A DNA stretch of 64,000 nt from Arenicola marina (Eukaryota > Annelida > Polychaeta > Arenicolidae), in NCBI GenBank assembly GCA_964019135.1, contig OZ025258.1:6777961-6841960 (forward strand). The letters run 5' to 3'. Shown piece after piece: positions 4,321 through 61,281 of this stretch. The notes below the pieces were generated by a model that saw nothing but the letters and a program-made list of their open reading frames with translations, was not told the origin of the DNA and searched no databases. Positions within the stretch are counted from its first letter, which is position 1, and the number at the start of each line of letters is the position of its first letter. Position numbers and translations under genes: made by a program.

Positions 4321-4351
4321 GATTTCTACCATGTTTATAACTATATCGTAG

Positions 4352-14826: not shown

Positions 14827-15620
14827 ATGGTGCATCAAGCGCCACCCACTGACCACAGCTCAACACACCAATGTACATCACAAGATACATTGGCGAAGAT
14901 TTCGTTGGCACGCAGGAAATTATATCCATAGGCTTCCTTAAAGCCCTGCGTTTCTTATGGTCGCTCCACCTTCCTATTTGGTTCCATAATTTTTGTTTCT
15001 GTTTGGCCCCTATGTTTTTCATTAACTTTTCACATTATGTTAATCTTCGGAGAAGACGATTTGCAAGGGAAATTGCTGTTTTAATGGCCACTGTGGTGGT
15101 TTGACTATATATCGCTATTCTTGCTCTCTGAAGTTGCAAATCTAGAACAAATGTGCGACTTCCATAGATGATTCATGTAGATTTGATTATTATATTCAGT
15201 CGTTTCCAGAGAGCATAAAACATTTTTACCGGAATATATTACGGAGGTTGTTTTCATTGAATATCAAGCAGCAAATTACCTGTAGGTCCTGTATGATTCT
15301 TTCTACACGTAACTGATCCATCTTCTCATAGCTCGCAGGCAGTCCTGTCATATTTGAATATGAGAACTTATGCCTGAGGCATTCCTTTGCATTTCAAGAC
15401 TTGCCGGACGATGTACATTGTATTTATCATTGTTTTGTATATATTATATGCTAGTACAGCATCGCTGTGAAAATTAAAAGTTATTTAGCATAGGCCACAC
15501 TCGTGTTCCTTGTGAAATGCAGCTCCTACTGCTTTCTTACGTGAAATTTAGTTTTGACTGCATTTATGTTTTAGTGTCTGCCTATTTATATCAAATAAAA
15601 TAAAATAAAGTGCCATGTGA
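14827..15620 (+). promoter_or_regulatory. Probable CDC45 3' UTR and poly(A) region
   Basis: Downstream of the CDC45 stop there is ATTAAA at 15473-15478 and a cluster AATAAAATAAAATAAA starting at 15594. Either could be the cleavage signal, giving a 3' UTR of about 0.65-0.8 kb. No other gene is seen in this stretch. Confidence 0.5.
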
Positions 15621-16874: not shown

Positions 16875-17126
16875 GGGGGCCGGCGCGATAGCTCAGTGGG
16901 CTAGAGCGCTCGCATTGAGTGCTCTGGCCACCTGAGAGCGGCACGTGGATCGATGGTACGAGCCCTGCTATGGCCATGTCTCTGTGGTCGCAGGATAAAG
17001 ATCCCATGTCTTTCTTCGTAAAGAGTGGGGGGTTAACCCCGGGGACATGGCTCCACTCTTCCCTCCTTCTCGCATTGACGCGATATGACCAAAATTTTGT
17101 TAAAGCGTCCTGAATAACCAACCAAC
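16875..17126 (+). mobile_element. tRNA-derived SINE (copy 1)
   Basis: The head contains a polymerase III A box (TAGCTCAGTGGG) and a B-box variant (GGTACGAGCCC). A shared body follows (AAAGATCCCATGTCTTTC, CCCCGGGGACATGGCTCCAC, GACGCGATATGACC) and it ends in an AACCAACCAACC tail. A nearly complete second copy is at 49482-49736, which fixes both ends. The flanks CATGCTGAC (16866-16874) and CATAGTGAC (17127-17135) match at 7 of 9 positions and look like a decayed target-site duplication. The B box has one change from consensus (GGTTCGA to GGTACGA). Confidence 0.88.
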
Positions 17127-17170
17127 CATAGTGACCGCCTGGATGAGAATCTGGCTTAAAACTCTGGCTC

Positions 17171-20223: not shown

Positions 20224-22538
20224 TCATTCCTCATCCTTAACGTGAGCCTTGGCCTCCAGCTTCTTCTGCTGAAGTTGCTTTTTCTGTTGACCATGCTGCT
20301 TGCCAGAATTCTCAGCATTCTTGGCGTAGCCACCTGAGTAATCAGCTTAAGATGACATGTAACATCAAAGGAGCAAAGGTGTTAATGTGAGCACTTATTT
20401 GATAGGATTTCATAATATATGAGGACTGTTCATTTCTTATTGTTGCTCAAATGGCCGTGTGACGGTCTTTTATGACATGTTCAAGGACAAGGCCAATAAA
20501 CAATGTTAGGCGCGTATCTCTGACCGGCCGGGGTACGCGTGCATTTAGATCCCCGCGCTTCCGTTAGTTACAGTCATACTTACATGGTCCAATGTCGTAG
20601 CTGCAGACCACACTGGCATCTTCACTGTGGCCACAGTTATGGTAGCCCCATCCCAGGTGCATGCAGTCAGGCAGATACCACTCATGGCCCATACAGTTCA
20701 CATCGTCCATCCAGATCTGACCAGTGCCCTGTCCGTAGGCAGCGCTTTGCAGACCGTAGCCAGAGTTGAAACCCAACTGGCGGCAAACAGCCCGATAAAT
20801 AGCGTTAATGAGTAATACGATTAAATGTCTAGTGGTGGTGTAGTTCCTTATTTCAAATATGTAGGCGCGAGCAATAGTCAAAAAGGGATTAGTATCGACT
20901 TTCTCGTTGCCCGCTGTGATAACGAAATTTAAAAAATGGCTAATATAATGAGTATTGTAAAAATAGTAACAACTTTCCTTGTGATTATTGCATTGCTATG
21001 TACAATTTGAATCCTTAACATACTTATTTACAAAACTCATCAGGTTACTGTAATTCTTAATATAGGCATAATCTTAACTTCTTTTGTCCTTTTTTGCAAT
21101 TTACGTATTAATTATATATTTACATCTGAGGTGAAGATTGTTATATTTACGTGGCGTCCGTGTCATCCCAGTAGTCGTCACAGACCGTGCCCCATTCACC
21201 GTTGTGAAAGATCTCCACACGACCGTCGTAACCCGTACCGCCAACAAGGCGAACGTCGCCTGAGGACAGAACCAAACACAGTGTATCAACGGAGGTCACA
21301 GCCTCGTGTTGATGACAAACCCTTGGATCCCACCAGCCCCGAGGTCGCTGAAGTACAGGCGGGGTCCCGTCTCATCGAGACGGTCAGTATAAAAGGGCTT
21401 TGGCGTATACAATGAAACATCCCTGAACCACCATGCACCTCTAAACTCTAATCGCCTTCGTAATTCGATACAATATTATTCATATATATCTATATGTATG
21501 GATACCACACAACACGACGACATGCCGGCCCAAGTCAAGAAATATCTGGCTGCGTGCCAGATATTTACATGAGTAGACAATTTTATAAATGAACGTGGAA
21601 TATGCAGTAAAATCCACTGGAGACTTCACTCCATTTTTCTCTCACGACATTATTTTTTCTGTAATGTAGTGTGTTTGAGTCATAAAGACGTTTTTACTTT
21701 TATTTTCAGTTCTCGCATGTATTACTTTCAACTGGACTTCCCAAAACAAGTTGGCGTATCGCTTTCCGTAAGCTGCCATATGCTGAATCATGTGCTGCCA
21801 TCTGGTGCCTTGCCGATATAAATCCATCCGTTAATTGGTTAGTTATGATTGCAAGCTAGAATCTTAGCCGCTCGCGATGGGTTTATTTGGTCCAAAGTTA
21901 ATTTACTCCGAATATCCCCCAGTCGATCGACAGGAAACACGCTATCAATCTATAACACAAAACATAACATAAGGCATAACACACGATATTTGACAGTAAT
22001 CATAAGCTCAACCTAGCTAGTCTTACCCTCGTAGCCGCAACCGTTGTTCCAGTTACTGCTTTGCCAGCTGTAGTAACTGTAGTAACCGTTGTAACTGTAG
22101 TAACCGTTGTAACTGTAGTAACCGTTGTAACTGAAGTAACCGTTGTAACTGTTACTGCCAGGGTTCACGAAGGACTGCGCAAATGAAAAACCTATTAAAA
22201 GCACATGTCGAGGAAAACTTATGGAGGAAATGACGGGACATCTGTACCATATAACGGTAGAATTCCCAAACAAAATGGCCAAAAGCTTTCAGTACTGTCA
22301 CGTGCTCATGAAGTTTTTGACGTGTGGTCAGTTGTTTTACCTAGATGAAGTTTTAGTGAGGAATATGAAGATCACTGAAACTGCGACATTGTGATCAACG
22401 TATCGTGCAAGTGTTACAACACAGCCGATCATGTAACCTACACAAATATGATGACATTCGCAATTCAAGACTGCGTTTCCCTACCGACTGTCCCTTGGCC
22501 AGAGCCAACACCGCGACGAGGAGAATCAAACGAAGCAT
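20224..22538 (-). CDS. Secreted single-domain SRCR protein, five exons
   Basis: Minus-strand exons: 22485-22538, 22027-22174, 21151-21259, 20584-20792 and 20224-20333 (209 residues). Exon 1 is a signal peptide, [18 protein letters not shown]. Exon 2 holds YNGYYS-type repeats (about residues 25-50). Exons 3-4 encode one scavenger-receptor cysteine-rich domain with six cysteines (TVCDD, AVCRQ, VNCMG, PDCMH, HNCGH, VVCSY), split over two exons as in group-A SRCR. Exon 5 is a Lys/Gln-rich tail ending [12 protein letters not shown] proteins bind ligands extracellularly, often in immunity, but the ligand is unknown here. Exon 4 ends at a strong donor, CCAT|GTAAGTATG. Reading through instead gives a stop at 20564 and a shorter protein. 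Exon 5 could start at 20345, since both acceptors keep phase. Oddity: where exon 4 should begin (20792) the preceding bases are CG, not AG, so the acceptor is mutated, non-canonical or a sequence error. Confidence 0.85.
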
Positions 22539-24662: not shown

Positions 24663-24730
24663 GTGTTTTAGATTGTACTTGGTGTGTACGCTACAGTCTG
24701 CCAGACACGCGGACCTTGGCGAACCAGCCA

Positions 24731-24842
24731 GACTCCTCGATCTGAATCGTCGAATGTATGTAAACCACATTGCCAAACGCGACGGCATGCCTGCCCAAGT
24801 CAATGTGATATAAACAGATTCGACAACTCAGATCGAGGAGTC
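24731..24842. repeat. 25-bp inverted repeat just left of the tRNA-like head
   Basis: Arms 24731-24755 and 24818-24842 are complementary at 23 of 25 positions (GACTCCTCGATCTGA is exact). An inner CACATTG/CAATGTG pair can extend the fold. Part of the loop (GGCATGCCTGCCCAAGTCAA) resembles 21516-21538. Confidence 0.8.
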
Positions 24843-24875
24843 ATGGATGCAGCCATGGCTCGCCGGGGTTCGCTG

Positions 24876-24931
24876 TTGCTCAGTAGTTAGAGTTGCCGGC
24901 GCGCAAAGCCGGCGGTCTTTGGTTTGATGCC
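24876..24931 (+). mobile_element. tRNA-like head (D arm, anticodon arm, start of T arm)
   Basis: TTGCTCAGTAGTTAGAG matches a D arm/A box. GCCGGC, GCGCAAA, GCCGGC forms a 6-bp stem with a 7-nt loop in the anticodon-arm position. GGTC is the variable loop, and GGTTTGATGCC is a T-arm/B box with two changes. The 5' acceptor strand is not recognisable, so this is a tRNA-derived element and not a working tRNA. The 21-bp array begins inside its B box. A related unexpanded fragment is at 58946-58975. Confidence 0.72.
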
Positions 24932-27900
24932 TGGGTCCTGGCTTCGATTCGTTGGGTATTTGGTTCAATTCGTTGGGTCCTTGGTTCGATTCCCTGGGCC
25001 CTGGCTTCGATTCCCCGGGTCCTGGCTTCGATTCCCTTGGCCCTGGCTTCGATTCCCCCGGTCCTGGCTTCGATTCCCTGGGCCCTGGCTTCGATTCCCC
25101 GGGCCCTGGCTTCGATTCCCTGGGCGCTGGCTTCGATTCCTTGGGTCCTTGGTTCGATTCCCCCGTCCTGGCTTCGATTCCCTGGGTCCTTGGTTCGATT
25201 CCCTGGGCCCTGGCTTCGATTCCCTGGGCCCTGGCTTCGATTCCATGGGTCCTGGCTTCGATTCCCTGGGCCCTGGCTTCGATTCCTTGGGTCCTTGGTT
25301 CGATTCCCTGGGCCCTGGCTTCGATTCCCTGGGCCCTGGCTTCGATTCCCCGGGTCCTGCCTTGGATTTCCTGGGCCCTGGCTTTGATTCCCCGGGTCCT
25401 GGCTTCGATTCCCTGGGCCCTGGCTTCGATTCCCTGGGTCCTTGGTTCGATTCCCTGGGCCCTGGCTTCGATTCCCTGGGCCCTGGCTTTGATTCCCCGG
25501 GCCCTGGCTTCGATTCCCTGGGCCCTAGCTTTGATTCCCCGGGTCCTGGCTTCGATTCCCTGGGCCCTGGCTTCGATTCCCTGGGTCCTTGGTTCGATTC
25601 CCTGGGCCCTGGCTTCGATTCCCTGGGCCCTGGCTTCGATTCCCCGGGTCCTGCCTTGGATTTCCTGGGCCCTGGCGGCTTCAATTCTCCGGCGGGTCCT
25701 GGCTTCGATTCCCTGGGCCCTGGCTTCGATTCCCTGGGCCCTGGCTTCGATTCCTTGGGTCCTTGGTTCGATTCCCTGGGCCCTGGCTTCGAGTCCCCGG
25801 GTCCTGGCTTCGATTCCCTGGGCCCTGGCTTCGATTCCTTGGGTCCTTGGTTCGATTCTCTGGGCCCTGGTTTCGATTCCTTGGGTCCTTGGTTCGATTC
25901 CCTGGGCCCTGGCTTCGATTCCTTGGGTCGTTGGTTCGATTCCCTGGGCCCCGGCTTCGATTCCCTGGGTCCTTGGTTCGATTCCCTGGGCCCTGGCTTC
26001 GAATCCTTGGGTCCTTGGTTCGATTCCCTGGGCCCTGACTTCGAATCCTTGGGTCCTTGGTTCGATTCCCTGGGCCCTGACTTCGATTCCTTGGGTCCTT
26101 GGTTCGATTCCCTGGGCCCTGGCTTCGATTCATTGGGTCCTTGGTTTGATTCACTGGGCCCTGGCTTCGATTCCCCGGGTCTTGGCTTCGATTCCCTGGG
26201 CCCTGGCTTCGATTCCTTGGGTCCTTGGTTCGATTCCCTGGGCCCTGGCTTCGATTCCCTGGGCCCTGGCTTCGATCCCATGGGTCCTGGCTTCGATTCC
26301 CTGGGCCCTGGCTTCGATTCCTTGGGTCCTTGGTTCGATTTCCTGGGCCCTAGCTTTGATTCCCCGGGTCCTGGCTTCGATTCCCTGGGCCCTGGCTTCG
26401 AATCCTTGGGTCCTTGGTTCGATTCCCTGGGCCCTGGCTTCGATTCCTTGGGTCCTTGGTTCGACTCCCCGGGCCCTGGTTTCGATTCCCTGGGTCCTGG
26501 CTTCGATTCCTTGGGTCCTTGGTTCGATTCCCTGGGCCCTGGCTTCGATTCCCCGGGTCCTGGCTTCGCTTCCCCGGGGCCCTGGCTTCGATTCATTGGG
26601 TCCTTGGTTCGATTCCCTGGGCCCTGGCTTCGATTTGTTGGGTCCTTGGTTCGATTCCCTGGGCCCTGGCTTCGATTCCTTGGGTCCTTGGTTCGATTCC
26701 ATGGGCCCTGACTTCGATTCCTTGGGTCCTTGGTTCGATTCCCTGGGCCCTGGCTTCGATTCCTTGGGTCCTTGGTTCTATTCCCTGGGCCCTGGCTTCG
26801 ATTCCCCGGGTCCTGGCTTCGATTCCCTGGGCCCTGGCTTCGATTCCTTGGGTCCTTGGTTCGATTCCCTGGGCGCTGGCTTTGATTCGTTGGGTCCTTG
26901 GTTCGATTCCCGGGGCCCTGGCTTCGATTCCCTGGGCCCTGGCTTCGATTCCCCGGGTCCTGCCTTCGATTTCCTGGGCCCTGGCGGCTTCAATTCTCCG
27001 GCGGGTCCTGGCTTCGATTCCCTGGGCCCTGGCTTCGATTCCCTGGGCCCTGGCTTCGATTCATTGGGTCCTTGGTTCGATTCCCTGGGCCCTGGCTTCG
27101 ATTCATTGGGTCCTTGGTTCGATTCCCTGGGCCCTGGCTTCGATTCCTTGGGTCCTTGGTTCGATTCCCTGGGCCCTGGCTTCGATTCCTTGGGTCTTTG
27201 GTTTGATTCCCTGGGCCCTGGCTTCGATTCGTTGGGTCCTTGGTTCGATTCCCTGGGCCCTGGCTTCGATTCCATGGGTCCTTGGTTCGATTCCCCGGGC
27301 CCTGGCTTCGATTCCTTGGGTCCTTGGTTCGATTCCCTGGGCCCTGGCTTCGATTCGTTGGGTCCTTGGTTCGATTCCCTGGGCCCTGGCTTCGAATCCT
27401 TGGGTCCTTGGTTCGATTCCCTGGGCCCTGACTTCGAATCCTTGGGTCCTTGGTTCGATTCCATGGGCCCTGACTTCGATTCCTTGGGTCCTTGGTTCGA
27501 TTCCCTGGGCCCTGGCTTCGATTCCTTGGGTCCTTGGTTCGATTCCCTGGGCGCTGGCTTTGATTCGTTGGGTCCTTGGTTCGATTCCCGGGGCCCTGGC
27601 TTCGATTCCCTGGGCCCTGGCTTCGATTCCCCGGGTCCTGCCTTCGATTTCCTGGGCCCTGGCGGCTTCAATTCTCCGGCGGGTCCTGGCTTCGATTCCC
27701 TGGGCCCTGGCTTCGATTCCCTGGGCCCTGGCTTCGATTCATTGGGTCCTTGGTTCGATTCCCTGGGCCCTGGCTTCGATTCATTGGGTCCTTGGTTCGA
27801 TTCCCTGGGCCCTGGCTTCGATTCCTTGGGTCCTTGGTTCGATTCCATGGGCCCTGACTTCGATTCCTTGGGTCCTTGGTTCGATTCCCTGGGCCCTGGC

Positions 27901-30900
27901 TTCGATTCCTTGGGTCCTTGGTTCGATTCCCTGGGCCCTGGCTTTGATTCCCCGGGTCCTGGCTTCGATTCCCTGGGCCCTGGCTTCGATTCCTTGGGTC
28001 CTTGGTTCGATTCCCTGGGCCCTGGCTTCGATTCGTTGGGTCCTTGGTTCGATTCCCTGGGCGCTGGCTTCGATTCGTTGGGTCCTTGGTTCGATTCCCG
28101 GGGCCCTGGCTTCGATTCCCTGGCCCTGGCTTCGATTCCCCGGGTCCTGCCTTCGATTTCCTGGGCCCTGGCGGCTTCAATTCTCCGGCGGGTCCTGGCT
28201 TCGATTCCCTGGGCCCTGGCTTCGATTCCCTGGGCCCTGGCTTCGATTCCTTGGGTCTTTGGTTCGATTCCCTGGGCCCTGGCTTCGAGTCCCCGGGTCC
28301 TGGCTTCGATTCCCTGGGCCCTGGCTTCGATTCCTTGGGTCCTTAGTTCGATTCCCTGGGCCCTGGCTTCGATTCCTTGGGTCCTTGGTTCGATTCCCCG
28401 GGCCCTGGTTTTGATTCCCTGGGTCCTGGCTTCGATTCCTTGGGTCCTTGGTTCGCTTCTCTGGGCCCTGGCTTCGATTCCCCGGGTCCTGGCTTCGATT
28501 CCCTGGGCTCTGGCTTCGATTCCCTGGGCCCTGACTTCGATTCCCTGGGCCCTGGCTTCGATTCCTTGGGTCCTTGGTTCGATTCCCTGGGCCCTGGCTT
28601 CGATTCCTTGGGTCCTTGGTTCGATTCCCTGGGCCCTGGCTTCGATTCCTTGGGTCCTTGGTTCGATTTCCTGGGCCCTGGCTTCGAATCCTTGGGTCCT
28701 TGGTTCGATTCCCTGGGCCCTGACTTCGAATCCTTGGGTCCTTGGCTCGATTCCCTGGGCCCTGGCTTCGATTCATTGGGTCCTTGGTTCGATTCCCTGG
28801 GCCCTGGCTTCGATTCCCCGGGTCTTGGCTTCGATTCCCTGGGCCCTGGCTTCGATTCCTTGGGTCCTGGCTTCGATTCCCTGGGCCCTGGCTTCGATTC
28901 CCTGGGCCCTGGCTTCGATTCCATGGGTCCTGGCTTCGATTCCCTGGGCCCTGGCTTCGATTCCTTGGGTCCTTGGTTCGATTCCCTGGGCCCTGGCTTC
29001 GATTGCCCGGGTCCTGGCTTCGATTCCCTGGGCCCTGGCTTCGATTCCTTGGGTCCTTGGTTCGATTCCCTGGGCCCTGGCTTCGATTCCTTGGGTCCTT
29101 GGTTCGATTTCCTGGGCCCTAGCTTCGATTGCCCGGGTCCTGGCTTCGATTCCCTGGGCCCTGGCTTCGATTCCTTGGGTCCTTGGTTCGATTCCCTGGG
29201 CCCTGGCTTCGATTCCTTGGGTCCTTGGTTCGATTCCCCGGGCCCTGGTTTCGATTCCCTGGGTCCTGGCTTCGATTCCTTGGGTCCTTGGTTCGATTCC
29301 CTGGGCCCTGGCTTCGATTCCCCGGGTCCTGGCTTCGATTCCCTGGGCCCTGGCTTCGATTCCTTGGGTCCTTGGTTCGATTCCCTGGGCCCTGGCTTCG
29401 ATTCCTTGGGTCCTTGGTTTGATTCCCTTTGCCCTGGCTTCGATTCCTTGGGTCCTTGGTTCGATTCCCTGGGCCCTGGCTTCGATTCCTTGGGTCCTTG
29501 GTTCGATTCCCTGGGCCCTGGCTTCGATTCCTTGGGTCCTTGGTTCGATTCCCTGGGCCCTGGCTTCGAATCCTTGGGCCCTTGGTTCGATTCCCTGGGC
29601 CCTGACTTCGAATCCTTGGGTCCTTGGTTCGATTCCATGGGGCCTGACTTCGATTCCTTGGGTCCTTGGTTCGATTCCCTGGGCCCTGGCTTCGATTCCT
29701 TGGGTCCTTGGTTCGATTCCCTGGGCCCTGACTTTGAATCCTTGGGTCCTTGGTTCGATTCCCTGGGCCCTGACTTCGAATCCTTGGGTCCTTGGTTCGA
29801 TTCCATGGGCCCTGACTTCGATTCCTTGGGTCCTTGGTTCGATTCCCTGGGCCCTGGCTTCGATTCCCCGGGTCCTGGCTTCGATTCCCTGGGCCCTGGC
29901 TTCGATTCCTTGGGTCCTTGGTTCGATTCCCCGGGCCCTGGCTTCGATTCCTTGGGTCCTTGGTTCGATTCCCTGGGCCCTGGCTTCGATTCCTTGGGTC
30001 CTTGGTTCGAATCCCTGGGCCCTGACTTTGAATCCTTGGGTCCTTGGTTCGATTCCCTGGGCCCTGACTTCGAATCCTTGGGTCCTTGGTTCGATTCCAT
30101 GGGCCCTGACTTCGATTCCTTGGGTCCTTGGTTCGATTCCCTGGGCCCTGGCTTCGATTCCCCGGGTCCTGGCTTCGATTCCCTGGGCCCTGGCTTCGAT
30201 TCCTTGGGTCCTTGGTTCGATTCCCCGGGCCCTGGCTTCGATTCCTTGGGTCCTTGGTTCGATTCCCTGGGCCCTGGCTTCGATTCCCTGGGTCCTGGCT
30301 TCGATTCCTTGGGTCCTTGGTTCGATTCCCTGGGCCCTGGCTTCGATTCTTTGGGTCCTTGGTTCGATTCCCCGGGCCCTGGTTTCGATTCCCTGGGTCC
30401 TGGTTTCGATTCCTTGGGTCCTTGGTTCGATTCCCTGGGCCCTGGCTTCGATTCCTTGGGTCCTTGGTTCGATTCCCTGGGCCCTGGCTTCGATTCGTTG
30501 GGTCCTTGGTTCGATTCCCGGGGCCCTGGCTTCGATCCCTGGGCCCTGGCTTCGATTCCTTGGGTCCTGCCTTCGATTCCCTGGGCCCTGGCTTCGATTC
30601 GTTGGGTCCTTGGTTCGATTCCCTGGGCCCTGGCTTCGATTCCCCGGGTCCTGGCTTCGATTCCCTGGGCCCTGGCTTCGATTCCTTGGGTCCTTGGTTC
30701 GATTCCCGGGGCCCTGGCTTCGATCCCTGGGCCCTGGCTTCGATTCCCCGGGTCCTGCCTTCGATTCCCTGGGCCCTGGCGGCTTCAATTCTCCGGCGGG
30801 TCCTGGCTTCGATTCCCTGGGCCCTGGCTTCGATTCCCTGGGCCCTGGCTTCGATTCCTTGGGTCCTTGGTTCGATTCCCTGGGCCCTGGCTATGAGTCC

Positions 30901-33900
30901 CCGGGTCCGGGCTTCGATTCCCTGGGCCCTGGCTTCGATTCTTTGGGTCCTTGGTTCGATTCCCCGGGCCCTGGTTTTGATTCCCTGGGTCCTGGCTTCG
31001 ATTCCTTGGGTCCTTGGTTCGATTCCCTGGGCCCTGGCTTCGATTCTTTGGGTCCTTGGTTCGATTCCCCGGGCCCTCGTTTCGATTCCCTGGGTCCTGG
31101 CTTCGATTCCTTGGGTCCTTGGTTCGATTCCCTGGGCCCTGGCTTCGATTGCCCGGGTCCAGGCTTCGATTCCCTGGGCCCTGGCTTCGATTCCTTGGGT
31201 CCTTGGTTCGATTCCCTGGGCCCTGGCTTCAATTCCCCGGGTCCTTGGTTCGATTCCCTGGGCCCTGGCTTCGATTCATTGGGTCCTTGGTTCGATTCCT
31301 GGGCCCTGGCTTCGATTCCTTGGGTCCTTGGTTCGATTCCCTGGGCCCTGGCTTCGATTCCCTGGGCCCTGGCGGCTTCAATTCTCCGGCGGGTCCTGGC
31401 TTCGATTCCCTGGGCCCTGGCTTCGATTCCCTGGGCCCTGGCTTCGATTCCTTGGGTCCTTGGTTCGATTCCCTGGGCCCTGGCTTCGATTCCATGGGCC
31501 CTGGCTTCGATTCCCTGGGCCCTGGCTTCGATTCCCCTGGTCCTGGCTTCGATTCCCTGGGCCCTGGCTTCGATTCCTTGGGTCCTTGGTTCGATTCCCT
31601 GGGCCCTGGCTTCAATTCCCCGGGTCCTTGGTTCGATTCCCTGGGCCCTGGCTTCGATTCATTGGGTCCTTGGTTCGATTCCTGGGCCCTGGCTTCGATT
31701 CCTTGGGTCCTTGGTTCGATTCCCTGGGCCCTGGCTTCGATTCCTTGGGTCTTTGGTTTGATTCCCTGGGCCCTGGCTTCGATTCATTGGGTCCTTGGTT
31801 CGATTCGTGGGCCCTGGCTTCGATTCCTTGGGTCCTTGGTTCGATTCCCTGGGCCCTGGCTTCGATTCCCTGGGCCCTGGCGGCTTCAATTCTCCGGCGG
31901 GTCCTGGCTTCGATTCCCTGGGCCCTGGCTTCGATTCCCTGGGCCCTGGCTTCGATTCCTTGGGTCCTTGGTTCGATTCCCTGGGCCCTGGCTTCGAGTC
32001 CCCGGGTCCTGGCTTCGATTCCCTGGGCCCTGGCTTCGATTCTTTGGGTCCTTGGTTCGATTTCCCGGGCCCTGGTTTCGATTCCCTGGGCCCTGGCTTC
32101 GATTCCTTGGGTCCTTGGTTCGATTCCCTGGGCCCTGGCTTCGATTCCTTGGGTCCTTGGTTCGATTCCTTGGGTCCTGGCTTCGATTCCCTGGGCCCTG
32201 GCTTCGATTCTTTGGGTCCTTGGTTCGACTCCCCGGGCCCTGGTTTCGATTCCCTGGGTCCTGGCTTCGATTCCTTGGGTCCTTGGTTCGATTCCCTGGG
32301 CCCTGGCTTCGATTCCCTGGGTCCTGGCTTCGATTCCTTGGGCCCTGGCTTCGATTACTTGGGCCCTTGGTTCGATTCCCTGGGCCCTGGCTTCGATTCC
32401 CTGGGTCCTTGGTTCGATTCCCTGGGCCCTGGCTTCGATTCCTTGGGTCCTTGGTTCGATTCCCTGGGCCCTGGCTTTGATTCCTTGGGTCCTTGGTTCG
32501 ATTCCCTGGGCCCTGGCTTCGAATCCTTGGGTCCTTGGTTCGATTCCCTGGGCCCTGACTTCGATTCCCCGGGTCCTGGCTTCGATTCCTTGGGTCCTTG
32601 GTTCGATTCCCTGGGCCCTGGCTTTGATTCCCCGGGTCCTGGCTTCGATTCCCTGGGCCCTGGCTTCGATTCCTTGGGTCCTTGGTTCGATTCCCGGGGC
32701 CCTGGCTTCGATTCCCTGGGCACTGGCGGCTTCAATTCTCCGGCGGGTCCTGGCTTCGATTCCCTGGGCCCTGGCTTCAATTCCCTGGGCCCTGGCTTCG
32801 ATTCCTTGGGTCCTTGGTTCGATTCCCTGGGCCCTGGCTTCGATTCCTTGGGTCCTTGGTTCGATTTCCTGGGCCCTAGCTTCGATTGCCCGGGTCCTGG
32901 CTTCGATTCCCTGGGCCCTGGCTTCGATTCCTTGGGTCCTTGGTTCGATTCCCTGGGCCCTGGCTTCGATTCCTTGGGTCCTTGGTTCGATTCCCCGGGC
33001 CCTGGTTTCGATTCCCTGGGTCCTGGCTTCGATTCCTTGGGTCCTTGGTTCGATTCCCTGGGCCCTGGCTTCGATTCCCTGGGCCCTTGGTTCGATTCCC
33101 TGGGCCCTGGCTTCGATTCCCCGGGTCCTGGCTTCGATTCCCTGGGCCCTGGCTTCGATTCCTTGGGTCCTTGGTTCGATTCCCTGGGCCCTGGCTTCGA
33201 ATCCTTGGGCCCTTGGTTCGATTCCCTGGGCCCTGACTTCGAATCCTTGGGTCCTTGGTTCGATTCCATGGGCCCTGACTTCGAATCCTTGGGTCCTTGG
33301 TTCGATTCCCTGGGCCCTGGCTTCGATTCCTTGGGTCGTTGGTTCGATTCCCTGGGCCCTGGCTTCGATTCCTTGGGTCCTTGGTTCGATTCCCTGGGCC
33401 CTGACTTTGAATCCTTGGGTCCTTGGTTCGATTCCCTGGGCCCTGACTTCGAATCCTTGGGTCCTTGGTTCGATTCCATGGGCCCTGACTTCGATTCCTT
33501 GGGTCCTTGGTTCGATTCCCTGGGCCCTGGCTTCGATTCCCCGGGTCCTGGCTTCGATTCCCTGGGCCCTGGCTTCGATTCCTTGGGTCCTTGGTTCGAT
33601 TCCCCGGGCCCTGGTTTCGATTCCCTGGGTCCTGGCTTCGATTCCTTGGGTCCTTGGTTCGATTCCCTGGGCCCTGGCTTCGATTCTTTGGGTCCTTGGT
33701 TCGATTCCCCGGGCCCTGGTTTCGATTCCCTGGGTCCTGGCTTCGATTCCTTGGGTCCTTGGTTCGATTCCCTGGGCCCTGGCTTCGATTCCCCTGGACC
33801 TGGCTTCGATTCCCTGGGCCCTGGCTTCGATTCCTTGGGTCCTTGGTTCGATTCCCTGGGCCCTGGCTTCGATTCCTTGGGTCCTTGGTTCGATTCCATG

Positions 33901-36900
33901 GGCCCTGACTTCGATTCCTTGGGTCCTTGGTTCGATTCCCTGGGCCCTGGCTTCGATTCCCCGGGTCCTGGCTTCGATTCCCTGGGCCCTGGCTTCGATT
34001 CCTTGGGTCCTTGCTTCGATTCCCTGGGCCCTGGCTTCGATTCGTTGGGTCCTTGGTTCGATTCCCGGGGCCCTGGCTTCGATCCCTGGGCCCTGGCTTC
34101 GATTCCCCGGGTCCTGCCTTCGATTCCCTGGGCCCTGGCGGCTTCAATTCTCCGGCGGGTCCTGGCTTCGATTCCCTGGGCCCTGGCTTCGATTCCCTGG
34201 GCCCTGGCTTCGATTCCTTGGGTCCTTGGTTCGATTCCCTGGGCCCTGGCTATGAGTCCCCGGGTCCGGGCTTCGATTCCCTGGGCCCTGGCTTCGATTC
34301 TTTGGGTCCTTGGTTCGATTCCCCGGGCCCTGGTTTTGATTCCCTGGGTCCTGGCTTCGATTCCTTGGGTCCTTGGTTCGATTCCCTGGGCCCTGGCTTC
34401 GATTCTTTGGGTCCTTGGTTCGATTCCCCGGGCCCTGGTTTTGATTCCCTGGGTCCTGGCTTCGATTCCTTGGGTCCTTGGTTCGATTCCCTGGGCCCTG
34501 GCTTCGATTCTTTGGGTCCTTGGTTCGATTCCCCGGGCCCTGGTTTTGATTCCGTGGGTCCTGGCTTCGATTCCTTGGGTCCTTGGTTCGATTCCCTGGG
34601 CCCTGGCTTCGATTCTTTGGGTCCTTGGTTCGATTCCCCGGGCCCTGGTTTCGATTCCTTGGGTCCTTGGTTCGATTCCCCGGGCCCTGGCTTCGATTCC
34701 TTGGGTCTTTGGTTTGATTCCCTGGGCCCTGGCTTCGATTCCCTGGGCCCTGGCTTCGATTCCTTGGGTCCTTGGTTCGATTCCCTGGGCCCTGGCTTCG
34801 AGTCCCCGGGTCCTGGCTTCGATTCCCTGGGCCCTGGCTTCGATTCTTTGGGTCCTTGGTTCGATTTCCCGGGCCCTGGTTTCGATTCCCGGGGCCCTGG
34901 CTTCGATTCCCTGGGTCCTGGCTTCGATTCCTTGGGTCCTTGGTTCGATTCCCTGGGCCCTGGCTTCGATTGTTTGGGTCCTTGGTTCGATTCCCCGGGC
35001 CCTGGTTTCGATTCCCTGGGTCCTGGCTTCGATTCCTTGGGTCCTTGGTTCGATTCCCTGGGCCCTGGCTTCGATTCCCCGGGTCCTGGCTTCGATTCCC
35101 TGGGCCCTGGCTTCGATTACTTGGGCCCTTGGTTCGATTCCCTGGGCCCTGGCTTCGATTCCTTGGGTCCTTGGTTCGATTCCCTGGGCCCTGGCTTCGA
35201 TTCCTTGGGTCCTTGGTCCGATTCCCTGGGCCCTGGCTTCGATTCCTTGGGTCCTTGGTTCGATTCCCTGGGCCCTGGCTTCGAATCCTTGGGTCCTTGG
35301 TTCGATTCCCTGGGCCCTGACTTCGATTCCCCGGGTCCTGGCTTCGATTCCTTGGGTCCTTGGTTCGATTCCCTGGGCCCTGGCTTTGATTCCCCGGGTC
35401 CTGGCTTCGATTCCCTGGGCCCTGGCTTCGATTCCTTGGGTCCTTGGTTCGATTCCCGGGGCCCTGGCTTCGATTCCCTGGGCACTGGCTTCGATTCCCC
35501 GGTTTCTGCCTTCGATTCCCTGGGCCCTGGCGGCTTCAATTCTCCGGCGGGTCCTGGCTTCGATTCCTTGGGCCCTGGCTTCAATTCCCTGGGCCCTGGC
35601 TTCGATTCCTTGGGTCCTTGGTTCGATTCTCTGGGCCCTGGCTTCGATTCTCTGGGTCCTGGCTTCGATTAGTTGGGTCCTGGCTTCGATTCGTTGGGTC
35701 CTTGGTTCGATTCCCTGGGCCCTGGCTTCGAATCCTTGGGTCCTTGGTTCGATTCCCTGGGCCCTGACTTCGATTCTTTGGGTCCTTGGTTCGATTCCCT
35801 GGGCCCTGGCTTCGATTCCCCCGTCCTGGCTTCGATTCCCTGGGCCCTAGCTTCGATTCCTTGGGCCCTTGGTTCGATTCCCTGGGCCCTGGCTTCGATT
35901 CCTTGGGTCCTTGGTTCGATTCCCTGGGCCCTGGCTTCGATTCCCCCGTCCTGGCTTCGATTCCCTGGGCCCTAGCTTCGATTCCTTGGGTCCTTGTTTC
36001 GATTCCCTGGGCCCTGGCTTCGATTCCCGGGGCCCTGGCTTCGATTCCCTGGGCCCTGGCTTCGATTCGTTGGGTCCTTGGTTCGATTCCCTGGGCCCTG
36101 GCTTCGATTCCCTGGGCCCTGGCTTCGATTCCCCGGGTCCTGCCTTCGATTCCCCGGGCCCTGGCTTCGATTCTCCGGCGGGTCCTGGCTTCGATTCCCT
36201 GGGCCCTGGCTTCAATTCCCTGGGCCTTGGCTTCGATTCCTTGGGTCCTTGGTTCGATTCTCTGGGCCCTGGCTTCGATTCTCTGGGTCCTGGCTTCGAT
36301 TAGTTGGGTCCTGGCTTCGATTCGTTGGGTCCTTGGTTCGATTTCCTGGGCCCTGGCTTTGATTCCCCGGGTCCTGGCTTCGATTCCCCGGGTCCTTGGT
36401 TCGATTCTCTGGGCCCTGGCTTCGATTCCCGGGGCCCTGGCTTCGATTCCCTGGGCCCTGGCTTCGATTCGTTGGGTCCTTGGTTCGATTCCCTGGGCCC
36501 TGGCTTCGATTCCCTAGGCCCTGGCTTCGGTTCGTTGGGTCCTTGGTTCAATTCCCTGGGCCCTGGCTTCGATTCCTTGGGTCCTTGGTTCGATTGTCTG
36601 GGCCCTGGCTTCGGTTCGTTGGGTCCTTGGTTCGATTCCCTGGGCCCTGGCTTCGATTCTTTGGGCCCTGGCTTCGATTCCCTAGGCCCTGGCTTCGATT
36701 CCCTTGGCCCTGGCTTCGATTCCCTAGGCCCTGGCTTCGATTCCCTGGGCCCTGGTTTCGGTTCGTTGGGTCCTTGGTTCGATTCCCTGGGCCCTGGCTT
36801 CGGTTTGTTGGGTCCTTGGTTCGATTCCCTGGGCCCTGGCTTCGGTTCGTTGGGTCCTTGGTTCGATTCCCTGGGCCCTGGCTTCGATTCTTTGGGCCCT

Positions 36901-37145
36901 GGCTTCGATTCCCTAGGCCCTGGCTTCGATTCCCTTGGCCCTGGCTTCGATTCCCTAGGCCCTGGCTTCGAGTCCCTGGGCCCTGGTTTCGGTTCGTTGG
37001 GTCCTTGGTTCGATTCCCTGGGCCCTGGCTTCGGTTCGTTGGGTCCTTGGTTCGATTCCCTGGGCCCTGGCTTCGATTCCCTAGGCCCTGGCTTCGATTA
37101 CCTGGGTCCTGGCTTCGATTCGTGGGGTCTTTGATTCGATTCCCA
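24921..37145. repeat. 12.2-kb array of a 21-bp monomer carrying the pol III B box
   Basis: TTCGATT words recur every 21 bp from 24943 to 37135, about 580 monomers with few indels. Two alternating types dominate: CCTTGGTTCGATTCC with TTGGGT, and CCCTGGCTTCGATTCC with CTGGGC. The first contains GGTTCGATTCC, an exact pol III B box; the second differs from the box at one position (GC for GG). A variant block (GGCGGCTTCAATTCTCCGGC) recurs at irregular intervals and marks segmental duplications. The array starts in the B box of the tRNA-like head at 24921 and ends in GATTCGATTCCCACCGAGAC at 37133, which reads like a tRNA T loop, T stem and acceptor 3' side. GGTCTTTG occurs at both ends. As 21 is divisible by three, GFDSLGP-, LASIPWA- and GPRESKP-type heptad frames are open on both strands but are not genes. 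Confidence 0.96.
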
Positions 37146-37153
37146 CCGAGACA
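37131..37153 (+). mobile_element. T-arm/acceptor-like right end of the B-box array
   Basis: TTGATTCGATTCCCACCGAG reads as T loop, CCCAC T-stem strand and acceptor strand. The just-upstream GTGGG (37121-37125) could be the original complementary T-stem strand. Confidence 0.5.
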
Positions 37154-37243
37154 TTCTATCGTATAAAAACAAATACATTTCGTTCTGAAACTGCATGATA
37201 CTGGGAATTATTACGAATTGATGGTCGTGTTAACTAGCACAAT

Positions 37244-37386
37244 AGGGCTGTACAGTTCTCGCGGGTTCTATTTCCGGTTAAGGTCCTTTGGGGACCAAGA
37301 AAAGAACAGTGCTCCCTAGAACGAGTGCGCATCACGCTGGTTCCTTGCTACAGCTGCGTGCGGCGCACTCATTGTAGTCATCGATG
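37244..37386 (+). mobile_element. Dispersed terminal repeat AGGGCTGTACAGT (type B)
   Basis: From AGGGCTGTACAG to GCGCACTCATTGTAGTCA the segment is closely matched at 63539-63676. It is preceded by AT. Both contain TTTGGGGACCAA, shared with the type A repeats at 37501 and 63331 and with the inverted copy ending at 47801. Confidence 0.75.
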
Positions 37387-37500
37387 TTTACATTTCTGCG
37401 TCAAACGGAACATCAATTTCCTCGTCTGGTCAGTCCATATGAGGAGCGTTGTTACGTAGCCATAGATACCGCGCGCAGACGTGCGAGTCATCATGATTAT

Positions 37501-37708
37501 AGGGCTATAAAGTCTCGTTCGCTTAGACTTCCGGTTTACTCATTTTGGGGACAAAGAAACGAAGCACGTGTTCGGAACGAGTTTAGAATCTCTGCGCACA
37601 CTGGTATCCTGACTATCTGTGACGTAGGCGTGACGTCTATGTTACGCAAAGAGAGAGACTGGGAACCAGACTTTCTGCGCAAAAGCCAGGCGCCGAGGGG
37701 CGGGTCCA
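37501..37708 (+). mobile_element. Dispersed terminal repeat AGGGCTATA (type A)
   Basis: This stretch matches 63331-63533 at high identity (TTGGGGACAAA, CTGACTATCTGTGA, GTTACGCAAAGAGAGAGACT). It is preceded by AT at 37499-37500. Open frames here on both strands fall inside the repeat and are not annotated. Confidence 0.75.
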
Positions 37709-39600
37709 TGGCGGATCGCCTAGCGATACGATGAAGAATATTTAAGAAATATAACTGCACAAAACGGATAGACGACATATTTTTCATTCGTTTGCGCCAT
37801 CACAATGATGAAAAATTGTCACGACGGGACAACACGGCTGAGAAACTAGCGCTTTTTTGCGCTTTCTACGATAACGAGGCATTATGACGTCACACGGCAC
37901 GTCACACGGATTCTCCCCGGTGACAACCTTGGCGCGACGCTTGAAACAGTAAGTAGCCGCGCTTCAGCAACAGATTTGAGTCATTTTATTATGTTAACGT
38001 TAAGTCTGCTACAATATCTTATTTGTTTTACCTAATCTGATGTTACGGATTGTTTCTAATTTGTGGTATTATGTAAACCAGGGTTATATAATCCTCAACC
38101 GGCGGTCAGTCGAGCTGACCGTGCACTGACACTCACTGTCAGTGTCAAGTGTCTCAAGCTCACATCATCTGATCATGTTAGGAGTTGGGCCTACCTAGCC
38201 TGTCATTGTTATCCAGTCATGAATCACTGACTTCACTCTGTTAGGATATTGACGCTAGCATTTACAGCAAAGCAAGTCTGGGAGTGGTTGCATACCTCTA
38301 TGAAGCCGCCCTCCCTCGTTTAACGCCACGCCCCCTTCAGCTTTAGCATTACCAGTAGAATATAGTTTAAGAATATGGAGTTCTACTGGTATTATATATC
38401 AGTAAAAAATATATAAACAAAAAAATTAATACAATTTAAATGAAATTAACTTAATATAGATCTATCTAATTGTTGGTATAAGCTTAGTTGGGAGTTTTTC
38501 CATGTTGTAATAATTATACTGAATACATAGCTAATTTCCTAACATTAGCTTGAAAAAAAAATAAAGCTTTAAAACAATATTTTATTAAGTACTTATTAAT
38601 CCAAAATATATATAAGCTAACTAAAATTCGAGATACAGTTAAAACATATATATTTGGCAGTACAATTTATCACTGAAAATCACAGAAATTGGGAACGCTG
38701 TCTGAAATGTATAGATCTAAATGGCAATAACTTTTTTCTTTATTAATATTCTGTAATAATTTTTTCTTTATATATATTCTGATGTACTCTAGTTTGTATT
38801 TAAACAAACAGAGACATTAGTGCATTGATTTGAAATTCTCTTCCGGAGAGGCGAACTTAACAGATATGCTGTCGTGCTGTGCCTATGAACTAATCAATAA
38901 TTTCATTTCTATGTCCATATGTCATTGGTTAGCATCAAATAGCTCTAAAATGTGTGGTGTTTTTATCAGTCTTTTTTTACATAAGTGAATTGATAATAAA
39001 CTGTTTTTATCGTATAGATTCTAGATCTAGTTTCTTTATTCTGGTAAATCAAAATCGAAATAACACTGGTAACATGATATTTAAAATATTTTACAGTGTA
39101 AGAAAAATAAACTTGTGGTCAAATATTCATTGGGCTACTTAAATACATAAAATAAAAATATTCAAATCTAAAGCAATTGGGACAAAATTAAAAGTCATTT
39201 TATGATCTGAAATTGATGAAATTCCATTGTTACGACTCGAGTGTTCATTTTAAATATATTAATGTTCAGTCAGTATATTCTTAGTATTAATATTGATGCA
39301 ATAGTGAAGTGATGATTTTTATTTATCTAAATAATGCATTAAGTCAATTTATAATTGGCTCAAGTGAACAGGTGTTGGATCAGTTATTTGTTATGACATT
39401 TATGGGATACTGTTCATTTTTTACGAAAACATCCATTTACCCCAATTATTTGTGAATGGGTGATAACAACATAATAAAAACTTTGTATTAAACAAACGAA
39501 TAATCAGAATCTACTATTACAAGCAAAATAACAATTATAAATGACTAATATCAAGCAAAGTCTTCAGTAATATGAAAATCTACTTTGATGAAAATAGCCA
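37709..39600. other. AT-rich noncoding stretch
   Basis: Strongly AT-rich with no exon recognised. It may be noncoding left part of the transposon whose coding genes begin at 41178. Confidence 0.4.
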
Positions 39601-41177: not shown

Positions 41178-43594
41178 ATGCCAATTTGCTTTGTGTACGG
41201 ATGCCCGCATCGCGGGGAGGACTCGTGCAAGCTTCTTCGCTTTCCCAAGCGACATGTACGTCACTGGGCGATACTGTGTAGGTAAGTATTTGCATCTTTG
41301 AATGTACATAACTTACTTTGAGTGGCCTAATGTTTGTTGCGATGATCATGAAGAGTTTTTATTAATCTGAATAATAGATATGAGATGAACAAAGAACGCA
41401 ATATTGGCAAGGTTGTAAATACAGCACCCACTCATTTTGAGATAGGTTGAAACTACATATAAGTAGCACCGGTGTATAAATCTTACTCTCGAAATCGGTA
41501 TTAAACCACTAGGTGCATGATCATCACGACTCAGCATTCTGGATCTTTCAGAAGAAAGGATCGACAAGTCACAGCGGATGACAGAATATGTAGCTGCCAT
41601 TTTAAGGACGGCATAAAAGAAAATGGCCCGTCCATATTCCCCTGGAACAGCTCTACGATCGAAGTTGAAGAAATTCCACAAAAACAGCGGTGACAATGTT
41701 TTTTAAATAAAATTGCCTTTATACATCAATATTATGAGCGTTGCACACATGCAAAAAGGTATGCAAAATATACAGGCGATTTACGGTAAAAATGGCTTCA
41801 GAACACATGAAGGAATATATATAATACTTATGATTTGTCTTGCGCAAATCTGACACAGAATACAAGTGGCATTAACTATTTACCTCAAGTTTATTATATC
41901 CAATTGGCATTCTAATGCAGATTACATAAGTTTATAAAAAAAAAGTTAACATTTTTACACTCTTACACAGCAAAATATAATGTCGAAACGTTAACACGGC
42001 AGATGTGATGTGTTTGCTTACAGAAAATTAATAAACACCACCCCAGCTGCAACATCGGATGGAGCACACGATTCTGAAGCACAGGGATTCGCCAGGCATC
42101 ACGACCATACCTACCGCAAGAGTTACGATGCTCTTGCTAGGAGCTACATGGTATGATGGGTTTTCCTTTTTGCGGCGACGTAATATGCTTAGAGTGGTAC
42201 GAGTATCATTTACAACATATATACACCATTGTAGCCACATTTTCGAGACTAGTTGATCTCGTTAATCCCAATATAAATATAGAACGTAACCTTTAGCGTT
42301 AAAATGTGCTCATTTCATGTGTGTACAAGAGGCATCCAGGGTCCTTAAGCGGCGACATTGTTGACACACCTAGATACAGACATAACTGACAGTGCAAATT
42401 GTGCATCGTTGCACATGAGAAAAGACATTGACTACGTAACGTATATAAACTTACAATAAAAATAATATAAACTCATTGGTTTCAGAAACTGGAAGAGAAA
42501 ACAAGGTCTCTGGAAATCCAGTTTGAGGCAATAAAGCTTCAGAGGCGACCTATGACCGTTGCAGACATTATAAACGATGATTCCAAGGTACCTCGTTTGA
42601 TACAATCTCCAATATGTTTACATGCAATGTGTCTTAAATAACTTCAGTTAAACGTTAAGTTCTGGCAAATTGACAGTTTAATGAAGACCACTATGTGAAA
42701 GTACTCGAATTTGTGTGCAATCTATCTCCAGATGCTGATGTATACCTCGTTGAAACCGGATGTGTTTAACCTCCTGGACGGCTACGTACAGCGATTTGAT
42801 GTGACCTACGTTGATGGGTGGGCCCCAAGCTGTTTTTCGCGAACAGATCAGTTATTGTTAACGCTCATGAAGCTAAAAATGGATCTTCCTTTGTTAGATC
42901 TCGCTGAACGTTTCTGCACCAGCGCTACAACAATTAATAATATATTTGCCACTCATGTTTATTTGCTACACGAAGTTCTTTATGAACAGCTAATCGATGG
43001 AGATTTACCCTCCTTAATTAAGTGCAAAGCGTCAATGCCCAGTTCGTTTGCTGACTTTAGTTCATGTCGTCTCATTCTCGATGCAACAGAAATAAGACAA
43101 GACGTGCCCGGAAATGACTTAAATCTTCAGGCACAAACATATTCCAGTTACAAAACCTCACACACCGTCAAGTCCGTAACTGGGGTAGCCCCAAATAGTG
43201 CCATAGTTTACGCCAGTCCCTTATACCCAGGAAGCGTTTCGGACGTTGCCATAGCGGCTCATACAGGCCTTCTTCAAAAAATGCCGACAAAGACTTTACA
43301 ATCCATAGACTACTACCACAGGGCGTCCATTTGAACATCCCTCCCTTTTTAAAGGACAAGGGCCAGTATACCGAGAGTGAAGTTAAATTGTGTCGCCAAA
43401 TCGCCAGGTCTCGAATTCATGTCGAAAGGGCTAATGAACGAATTAAAAATTACAATATCCTTCGCCATATCCCCCATCAGTATAGATACATCAGTACCAA
43501 ACTTTTCCAAGTCTGCTGTGCACTGGTTAACTTTCAAGAGCCTCTTATTCGAGAGGTGGCCATGCAGCATGAAACGGCAACCACCGTAAAATGA
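41178..43594 (+). pseudogene. THAP-domain DDE transposase, five exons, one frameshift
   Basis: Exons 41178-41281, 41552-41689, 42024-42150, 42486-42587 and 42732-43594 join in phase. Residues 1-65 form a THAP zinc finger (C4, C9, W30, C48, H51, PSIFP), which binds DNA such as transposon ends. A charged, probably coiled-coil linker follows (DHTYRKSYDALARSY, KLEEKTRSLEIQFEAIKLQ). Next comes YTSLKPDVFNLL and a helix-turn-helix (LLLTLMKLKMDLPLLDLAERF), then a DDE_Tnp_4-type nuclease with LILDATEI (D), PGSVSDVAI (D) and IHVERANERIKNY (E). Near 43280-43287 the frame changes and several residues before ADKDFTIHRLLPQG appear to be missing, so the copy is probably inactive. HARBI1-like and ISL2EU-like transposases share this fold; the YqaJ neighbour favours the latter. 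Confidence 0.85.
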
Positions 43595-49470: not shown

Positions 49471-49481
49471 ACATATATGTG

Positions 49482-49736
49482 AGGGGCCGGCGCGACAGCT
49501 CAGTGGGCTAGAGGTCCCTCATTGAGGGCTCTGGTCACCTGAGTGCCTAACGGCACGTGGGTCGGTGGTTCGAGCCCTGCTGTGGCCAGGTCTGTCCGGT
49601 CGCAGGATAAAGATCCCATGTCTTTCTTCGTAAAGAGTAGGGGGTTACCCCGGGGACATGGCTCCACTCTCCCTTCCTTCTCCCATTGACGCGATATGAC
49701 CAAAAGTGGTTAAAGCGTCCTGAATAACCAACCAAC
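49482..49736 (+). mobile_element. tRNA-derived SINE (copy 2) with 10-bp target duplication
   Basis: Same family as 16875-17126. It has an A box (CAGCTCAGTGGG), an exact B box (GGTTCGAGCCC), the shared body and an AACCAACCAACC tail. CATATATGTG is present on both sides (49472-49481 and 49737-49746), which defines the insertion precisely. Confidence 0.95.
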
Positions 49737-49929
49737 CATATATGTGGGGTAAACTAGAACTTAAATTCAACTATTTCATTATCATTATGAAAATAAAGGG
49801 CTGCTACAAGTTGTCTACAAATCGCGCTATTACTATTATTACGAGTTGAGTTTATGTAGTAGTCCTGCCAATAAAATTGCCTGACGCCCCGCTATTGTTA
49901 TACTACAACTATCGTAAGCTATCGGTCAG

Positions 49930-58551: not shown

Positions 58552-59511
58552 ATCAGCATGTTTGGCTGGACCTTGCCAGGAGTCTGCGCGAAATGGGCTC
58601 AGTGAGCCAGTGTCATAAGCATATTTACAACTCGTTCACGGCAACGTCAACAGATATGCCTCGCCACTGCGTTGGACGCAAGTGGATCAGACAAAGGAAG
58701 CTGCAATTAAAGAAAAGCATCATTAAATAACACAGCTTTCAAATGTATGACAAATGCACAAACATTTTGTGCGATCATTTTCATCCAGACCAATATCCGG
58801 ATCTGCAAAAACCATATAAACTCAACCTAAATTATCAATACTAAATTACACTATCGATATCACTTTACTTGGCAGGTGTTCATGAGGGTTGATACAGTAC
58901 ATGTGACATACAGGTCAATACATGAGGAGGTCATGTGATGCCTACGACGCCAAGCCGGCAGTCCTGGGTTCGATTAGTCGTAGCGGCGTCATAATATTTC
59001 CATCGTCATTCAATCCATTTATCCACCAAATGTGCTACTGAAAAGCGCTAACGGTCTAGTATCGTGTACCAGGGCGATTATGAACAAAAACAGATAGAGG
59101 GTCTACGTAAATATATATATATATATACGTTCTCATTCACATAGCGATATCCTGCGGTCCGTTTTCAACGACGAGTGGCTACCTCTATTTGCACCTGTTG
59201 TTTGCATACCCCTGCTCTAATCACCAGAGGGGGGGGGGGGGAGGGGGGGATAACCTGGGTCAATGATCAAGGTCTTGGTTAAGGTATCTCAAGGTGTTCA
59301 ATATTAGTGTCCACAAGGCGATCAGCGAATGGTATAAATATAAACCCATGGGTCGCACGTGTCAGTCGGCAAACCCTGGCAGCCCCACCAACCTCCAAGT
59401 CCGGTGGCTGTAGGACCTGGAGGTGCCTTAAACAAGAACTGTACTTCTTGTACCGCCCCCCCCCCCCCTCCTTCCTCGGGCATCAAGCCCTTGATTTGCC
59501 TCTGATTGTTG
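58552..59511. other. Intergenic with TA microsatellite and G/C runs
   Basis: TA repeats lie near 59111-59126, a G run near 59229 and a C run near 59456. No gene was recognised. Confidence 0.5.
58937..58985 (+). mobile_element. tRNA-like fragment related to the array head
   Basis: GCCAAGCCGGCAGTCCTGGG followed by TTCGATT resembles the anticodon arm, variable loop and T arm of the head at 24905-24931. The B box is GGTTCGATTAG. It shows the element without amplification. Confidence 0.55.
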
Positions 59512-61015: not shown

Positions 61016-61281
61016 TTTTGGTTGGGGGGGATGTATAGCTCAGACTTGCCCTTGGGGTGGATTATTAGGAACTTATGACCGGGGATGTGGGGGCGGGGGA
61101 TGGAACACCACAGGCATAGCCATATCATTTGTTGGCGTTTGGCAAAAACAATTGCAGGGGTGGAGGGGGGGTGGGTGGGGAGGCAGAGGCGGAGGCAGCC
61201 TTCGATGTACCTGTATGTATAAATGATTTAGAGACATCTTCAGATCTGAATGATCAATTTGTAAACACATATAAAATGATG

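Follow-up and report, generated by a model that had tools for sequence, protein, structure and literature searches.

On contig OZ025258.1 of the polychaete Arenicola marina (GenBank assembly GCA_964019135.1) lies a satellite of 581 short units that has very probably grown out of the T arm of a short interspersed element (SINE) with a transfer RNA (tRNA)-like head, most likely in a neutral manner. The stretch analysed, positions 6,777,961 to 6,841,960 of the forward strand, is 64,000 nucleotides long and is referred to as the window; positions are counted from its first letter unless another locus is named, and features are collected in Table 1. The T arm of tRNA genes contains the internal RNA polymerase III (pol III) B box, and the array is an example of a promoter motif multiplied into a dense block. 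One satellite is here tied unit by unit to its parent element while sister copies of that element are found at other stages, with a single tRNA, with a doubled T arm or, on C7, with the whole tRNA repeated about 65 times, and the step from mobile element to satellite is directly readable at this family.

Structure of the array

Tandem Repeats Finder (TRF) reported a single array at 24930-37121 with a period of 42 bp (2 x 21), 289 copies and 88% matches. Wraparound alignment of 24914-37145 resolved it into units of 21 bp (545), 23 bp (12), 25 bp (10), 20 bp (10) and 22 bp (2), together with two end pieces. A preliminary description of this DNA had counted about 580 monomers of 21 bp, one type of which carried the exact B box, and both statements hold: GGTTCGATTCC occurs 158 times, on the + strand only and in the array only, and the spacing between exact boxes is most often 42 bp. 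Two unit types dominate, TTGGGTCCTTGGTTCGATTCC with 139 exact copies and CTGGGCCCTGGCTTCGATTCC with 129, and GGCTTCGATTCC was counted 230 times.

When units with GGTTCGATTC or GGTTCGAATC were labelled B and the remainder b or other, the array comprised 164 B, 323 b and 94 other units. The two types had been described as alternating; both are present, but the alternation is loose, neighbouring units being bB in 146 cases, Bb in 134 and bb in 132, with BB never occurring. Identical runs of up to 18 units reappear 0.3 to 3.8 kb apart, and this recurrence suggests that the array grew partly by segmental duplication. The array is homogenised, with a mean of about one difference per unit from the nearer of the two consensus units. 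The sequence GGTCTTTG, previously noted at both edges, is indeed present there but is also found 6 times in the array, and is hence no edge marker.

Two tRNA-Ser calls made by ARAGORN within the array are taken as repeat artefacts, and real tRNA genes there were rejected. Neither the monomer nor the head had a match in the viral and prokaryote contigs, as expected for animal DNA.

The unit is a T arm

In the dispersed family described below, the variable loop and T arm together have the sequence GGTC-CTGGGTTCGAGTCCCGG, of 4 + 17 = 21 nt, in the same register as the satellite unit. CTGGGTTCG stands directly after GGTC in 95 of the 118 T arms caught by the pattern, a few of which are counted twice since loci L002 and L004 share about 0.6 kb. 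Written in this register the satellite units are GGTC-CTTGGTTCGATTCCCTG or GG(T/C)C-CTGGCTTCGATTCCCTG, and each type differs from the family unit at 4 of 21 positions; among 200,000 random 21-mers, 8 came equally close to the family unit in any rotation. The internal expansion of one tRNA-derived element, as previously proposed, is thus corroborated by a unit made of GGTC and the whole 17-nt T arm of a dispersed family. Copy L016, which is unexpanded, also has the G-type start CTGGCTTC, and the C7 array carries GGTCTTTGGTTCGAG in its edge unit. Going by these sequences, both unit types may have pre-existed the expansion as T-arm variants.

At its left edge the array starts inside the T arm of a tRNA-like sequence, as had been claimed, although the head begins at 24870, slightly upstream of the 24876 given earlier. 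The sequence left of the array, from 5' acceptor strand to T arm, reads TTCGCTGTTGCTCAGTAGTTAGAGTTGCCGGCGCGCAAAGCCGGCGGTCTTTGGTTTGATGCC, and its parts follow in tRNA order: 5' acceptor strand, D arm with an A-box-like TTGCTCAGTAG, anticodon arm (GCCGGC-GCGCAAA-GCCGGC), variable loop (GGTC) and first T arm. The terminal left unit of the satellite runs on into this head and further into a 5' extension. Extension and tRNA part of the window copy align to the single copies L005 (75%, E 5e-18) and L006 (74%, E 7e-16), and among eight array heads compared L017 alone has a similar 5' part ahead of the tRNA. A structural descriptor of D arm plus anticodon arm matched about 19.5 times per Mb on each strand when run on 2 Mb of random sequence; in the window it matched at three places, one of which is the head. 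That a match 38 bases from the array should be there by chance is unlikely, and the matter is settled by the genome-wide family of head matches.

Directly left of the head, at 24731-24842, there is a 42-nt inverted repeat whose right arm overlaps the 5' extension; its left arm looks like an inverted partial copy.

The source family

A search of the genome (867 Mb, 762 contigs) with 24700-24950 as query returned at least 52 matches, which were grouped as the window and 16 other places, the latter number being a lower bound. The head therefore belongs to a dispersed element and is no orphan edge, in agreement with the preliminary description. Eight of these 16 places carry three or more tandem 77-bp units, two carry two units and six are single copies; the longest tandem array measured, on C7, amounts to 63.8 copies within one fetched stretch and extends past its end. 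ARAGORN labels the units of the family tRNA-Gly, -Cys or -Ser. At the four loci given to Rfam, RF00005 matched 20 units in L002 and 24 in L007 with 31.8 to 49.8 bits, and the single copy L005 once with 29.7 bits (gathering threshold 29); the single copy L006 gave no match.

In 11/11 loci compared, the last tRNA unit gives way to a common body of about 105 nt, with E 1e-3 or better, the weakest match being that of L015 (pieces of 25-29 nt, E 0.001). By eye, the single copies L006 and L016 have only the first part of this body, and several bodies end in an A-rich stretch. Since tRNA units are followed by one common body at all loci compared, the source is, on its sequence, a dispersed tRNA-SINE-like family, its copies combining a tRNA-like head with A and B boxes and a shared body as tRNA-derived SINEs do. 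Small duplications also arise in the same region of other copies, as seen in the T arm of L006, doubled with a 14-bp step, and in a 10-bp doubling in the anticodon arm of L017 (by eye).

The whole 77-bp tRNA-like units stand head-to-tail without spacer at L021 5092-10000 with L002/L003/L004 (C7), and further long arrays of this kind were seen at L007/L008, L013, L015 and L018/L022. The commonest array unit ends in ACCA, followed by the G of the next, and reaches Rfam scores of up to 49.8 bits. Such arrays could inflate the tRNA gene counts of this genome.

A single-locus satellite

Arrays of the monomer without tRNA flanks, which according to the preliminary description would contradict an origin inside a tRNA-like element, were sought genome-wide with the exact dimer of the two main units. 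All 60 of 60 matches fell inside this array and the reversed control gave 0, and the main dimer is thus single-locus. A DNA search with a piece of the array gave 4 matches (two unrelated GC-rich arrays) and missed the window itself, so that it does not by itself show absence.

Two family-type T arms within 20 bases of each other gave 3 matches in the genome, at two loci, C3 and C4 (control 0). The repeat at C3 has a 29-bp unit present twice, that at C4 a 15-bp unit in 18 copies, and both have D-arm-like sequence just upstream. Their similarity to the 77-bp unit is weak (C4 71%, C3 73%, E 2e-4) and none was found to the family body and 5' extension, which assigns them to other tRNA-like elements. 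The sequence after the C3 repeat resembles a window element near 11300-11480 (67%, E 5e-6), a link that is weak for C4, and the match between C3 and C4 themselves (71%, E 7e-7) consists mostly of T arms with only the start of the following sequence. ARAGORN calls tRNAs within the C4 array too.

Mechanism and contrary observations

The history that these data suggest would begin with a tRNA-headed SINE-like element inserted at this locus, presumably by retroposition. From the head of this element 21 bp, comprising the GGTC of the variable loop and the complete T arm, would then have been duplicated in tandem, and slippage and unequal exchange would have extended the array to about 580 units, the two unit types spreading as further segments were duplicated. 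The 3' part of the element would have been lost or have become unrecognisable, and the 158 exact B boxes would be a by-product of the source sequence. The array has features that are expected of a SINE-derived satellite: its unit is homologous, in register, to part of a dispersed SINE-like element, the tandem units are many and homogenised, and the terminal unit continues into SINE sequence at the left end, though not at the right.

Several observations weigh against this history. The ten edge units are not significantly more diverged than the core (1.4 versus 1.01 differences, p 0.19), contrary to what simple unequal exchange might predict. The head is degenerate: Rfam reports no tRNA in it at E <= 10, and ARAGORN none in the head and none in joins of head and tail. 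On the right, the flank has no acceptor or SINE-body match to the fetched family members, and neither SINE body nor tail was found at the window copy. An unstable, neutral minisatellite is the most likely description of the array, yet the tests of neutrality are weak. As to Rfam, it had no match anywhere in the window at gathering thresholds, and its failure on a further tRNA-like element of the window (49480-49600) makes it a weak test in this case. A complete tRNA formed by joining head and tail was rejected in the absence of any ARAGORN call.

The right edge had been described as a T-arm/acceptor-like sequence, and tRNA-like edges unrelated to any dispersed element would, according to the preliminary description, have contradicted the proposed origin. 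A degenerate T-arm unit is indeed found, ending at about 37145, but the acceptor part had no match; the left edge lies in the family and the right edge matched none of it, and its interpretation as acceptor or SINE body was rejected. With 37110-37260 as query, all 39 other matches (40 of 144 candidates scored) were within 37197-37260, in an unrelated dispersed repeat. A dispersed repeat is present at 37242-37709 and again at 63331-63674, 91% identical and with its two halves in swapped order.

Alternative explanations

One may speculate that satellites of this genome have repeatedly been seeded by the T arm or B box in the heads of pol III SINEs, B boxes being repeatedly multiplied into dense TFIIIC-binding blocks, with TFIIIC occupancy or the T-arm hairpin itself possibly promoting slippage. 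Candidate cases are the 21 bp x 580 of this array, 15 bp x 18 (C4), 29 bp x 2 (C3) and 14 bp x 2 (L006), and perhaps the units of 23, 26, 21 and 26-27 bp on C1, C5, C8 and C14. The wider pattern GTTCGAGTCCN{2,22}GTTCGAGTCC gave 34 matches at 6 loci, C3 and C4 among them, while its reversed control CCTGAGCTTGN{2,22}CCTGAGCTTG gave 137 (5 and 132 by strand), so that no enrichment of B-box arrays was shown and, counted by match, the control lends no support to an excess over other words. A general rule of this kind appears unlikely. The 137 control matches probably stem from one or more large tandem arrays of the reversed word.

The proposal that the array is a functional TFIIIC-binding block, an extra-TFIIIC (ETC)-like boundary or clustering site kept for its B boxes, is quite improbable and not supported by our data. 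It draws on the 158 exact boxes, which share one strand and have 42 bp as their commonest spacing, and, in our own argument, on 21 bp equalling two helical turns. Precedents are boundary activity supported by B boxes in the fission-yeast inverted repeat (IR) element (PMC4502379) and the ETC sites described in PMC12409998, which have B boxes but no pol III. Yet the perfect box GGTTCGANTCC is found in 159/581 units, with one mismatch in 283, and the box is changed in 422/581. Mean consensus share in the units of the B type is 0.987 for box columns and 0.989 for the spacer (0.923 and 0.953 among distinct sequences), and in those of the G type 0.951 and 0.946 (0.909 and 0.903), in a comparison that left out 18/545 units fitting neither type and in which columns 8-12 vary little by construction, as they define the types. 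The B box is therefore not conserved above its surroundings in either type, and with most units carrying a changed box there is no sign of selection for it. Occupancy would also be limited, given that according to PMC12409998 the B box is almost completely enclosed by tauB, and neighbouring boxes 21 bp apart can probably not all be filled. Long arrays are, besides, not unusual here, the window holding four other long minisatellites.

Some TFIIIC binding by the array may nevertheless take place, since PMC12409998 reports a nanomolar affinity of tauB for the B box as well as the existence of ETC sites. For pol III transcribing onward from the head, the nearest TTTT ahead on the + strand lies 3.5 kb away, at 28409. 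With its 158 exact B boxes, the array is a natural setting for studying TFIIIC binding where a full promoter is lacking.

An ordinary GC-rich minisatellite without tRNA origin, its likeness to a T arm and its tRNA-like neighbour being coincidental, is highly improbable and already largely refuted. The four other minisatellites of the window would fit it, as would the B-box-like arrays on C1 and C14, where no D-arm-like match occurs in the 90 bases upstream, and the 137 versus 34 matches of the reversed control, according to which short-distance word repeats are common in this genome. Against it, the register is unbroken from head to array with the head exactly where it is expected, the unit matches the family T arm over 21 nt, and the family shows other tandem expansions. 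A coding array of heptapeptide repeats (LGPGFDS/LGPWFDS), to which 2277 open codons in one forward frame and frame-preserving pairs of 25- and 23-bp units might point, has next to no probability and was rejected, since the frame is shifted by eleven units, namely all ten of 20 bp and one of the two of 22 bp (the second precedes a 23-bp unit and so keeps the frame), the heptapeptide switches frame about 240 bp into the translated stretch, and long open stretches exist in all six frames, as expected of a stop-free repeat.

Comparison with known satellites

The satellite grown from a T arm is best compared with the SINE-derived satellites (sSat3) of squamate reptiles, which are described as having arisen independently from several SINE families (PMC10702118). 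According to that source they too have grown in tandem inside a tRNA-SINE, box B lies within the snake unit, the terminal units pass over into the SINE, alternation of subvariants is frequent and up to 1000 units are reached. The snake unit is, however, 67 nt long and includes part of the SINE body (PMC10702118), whereas the present unit has 21 bp, T arm and GGTC alone; moreover, this satellite sits at one locus, and in its sister copies it is the complete 77-bp tRNA that is expanded. The limpet Patella caerulea has PcH-sat, derived from Nin-SINE and likewise an invertebrate satellite from a tRNA-SINE, but its unit, as described in PMC11121367, is 179 bp long, stems from the 3' part of Nin-SINE and contains neither box.

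The amphibian pol III satellites (Xenopus OAX/satellite I, newt PolIII/TAN, Rana/polIII and Hy/polIII) are tandem and have tRNA-like parts, but their units are about 200-360 nt where PMC10702118 gives a length, and their link to SINEs is judged inconclusive there. The fission-yeast IR boundary resembles the array in having several B boxes in short DNA; it has five boxes, against 158 in the satellite, and a demonstrated boundary function (PMC4502379). No satellite consisting of the T arm and nothing else was found in the literature searched, which left most subscription journals outside. The array is an extreme form of the known SINE-derived satellites, in which the T-arm-only unit is new.

Other features

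Table 1. Satellite, flanking parts, related arrays and remaining features of the window.
Feature	Position	Strand	Basis or remark
Satellite of 581 units, most of 21 bp and each composed of GGTC + T arm (B box)	24914..37145	+	TRF, wraparound alignment
Example of commonest B-type unit, TTGGGTCCTTGGTTCGATTCC	24973..24993	+	139 exact copies in array
tRNA-like head	24870..24934	+	84.6% to 77-bp tRNA-like unit; 16 other genomic places
5' extension of SINE-like element	24819..24868	+	Shared with single copies elsewhere
Last, degenerate unit, GGTCTTTGATTCGATTCCCA	37126..37145	+	No SINE body or acceptor match after it
Stretch between array and next dispersed repeat	37146..37196	.	No other genome match seen
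Probable diverged, unexpanded family member	58939..59090	+	tRNA part 88.6% over 35 nt; body 62-63%, E 1e-4 and 2e-5
B-box-like tandem array L062, 8 units of 23 bp	C1		No D-arm-like match in 90 bases upstream
B-box-like tandem array L063, 5 units of 26-27 bp	C14		No D-arm-like match in 90 bases upstream
B-box-like tandem array L061, 26-bp units	C5		Repeat continues past counted cluster
B-box-like tandem array L060, 21-bp units	C8:38215430-38216323		Repeat continues past counted cluster
Minisatellite, 40 bp	1-4327		TRF; upstream of first recognised CDC45 exon
Minisatellite, 49 bp	4850-10406		TRF; upstream of first recognised CDC45 exon
Minisatellite, 33 bp	12509-13928		TRF; between CDC45 exons
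Minisatellite, 29 bp	59514-61016		TRF
CDC45 C-terminal exons	10522-14827		Pfam
SRCR exons	20564-20995 and 21147-21371	-	Pfam
DDE_Tnp_4 transposase fragment	42699-43334		Pfam

By eye, the start of the 33-bp minisatellite coincides with the 5' splice site of a CDC45 intron. Also dispersed in the window, at 16876-17130 and 49483-49740 as a pair 89% identical, is a second tRNA-like element (GGCAGCTCAGTGGGCTAGAGCGC...GGTTCGAGCCCC), which stands in tandem at about 106 bp in L002 1740-2100 (by eye).

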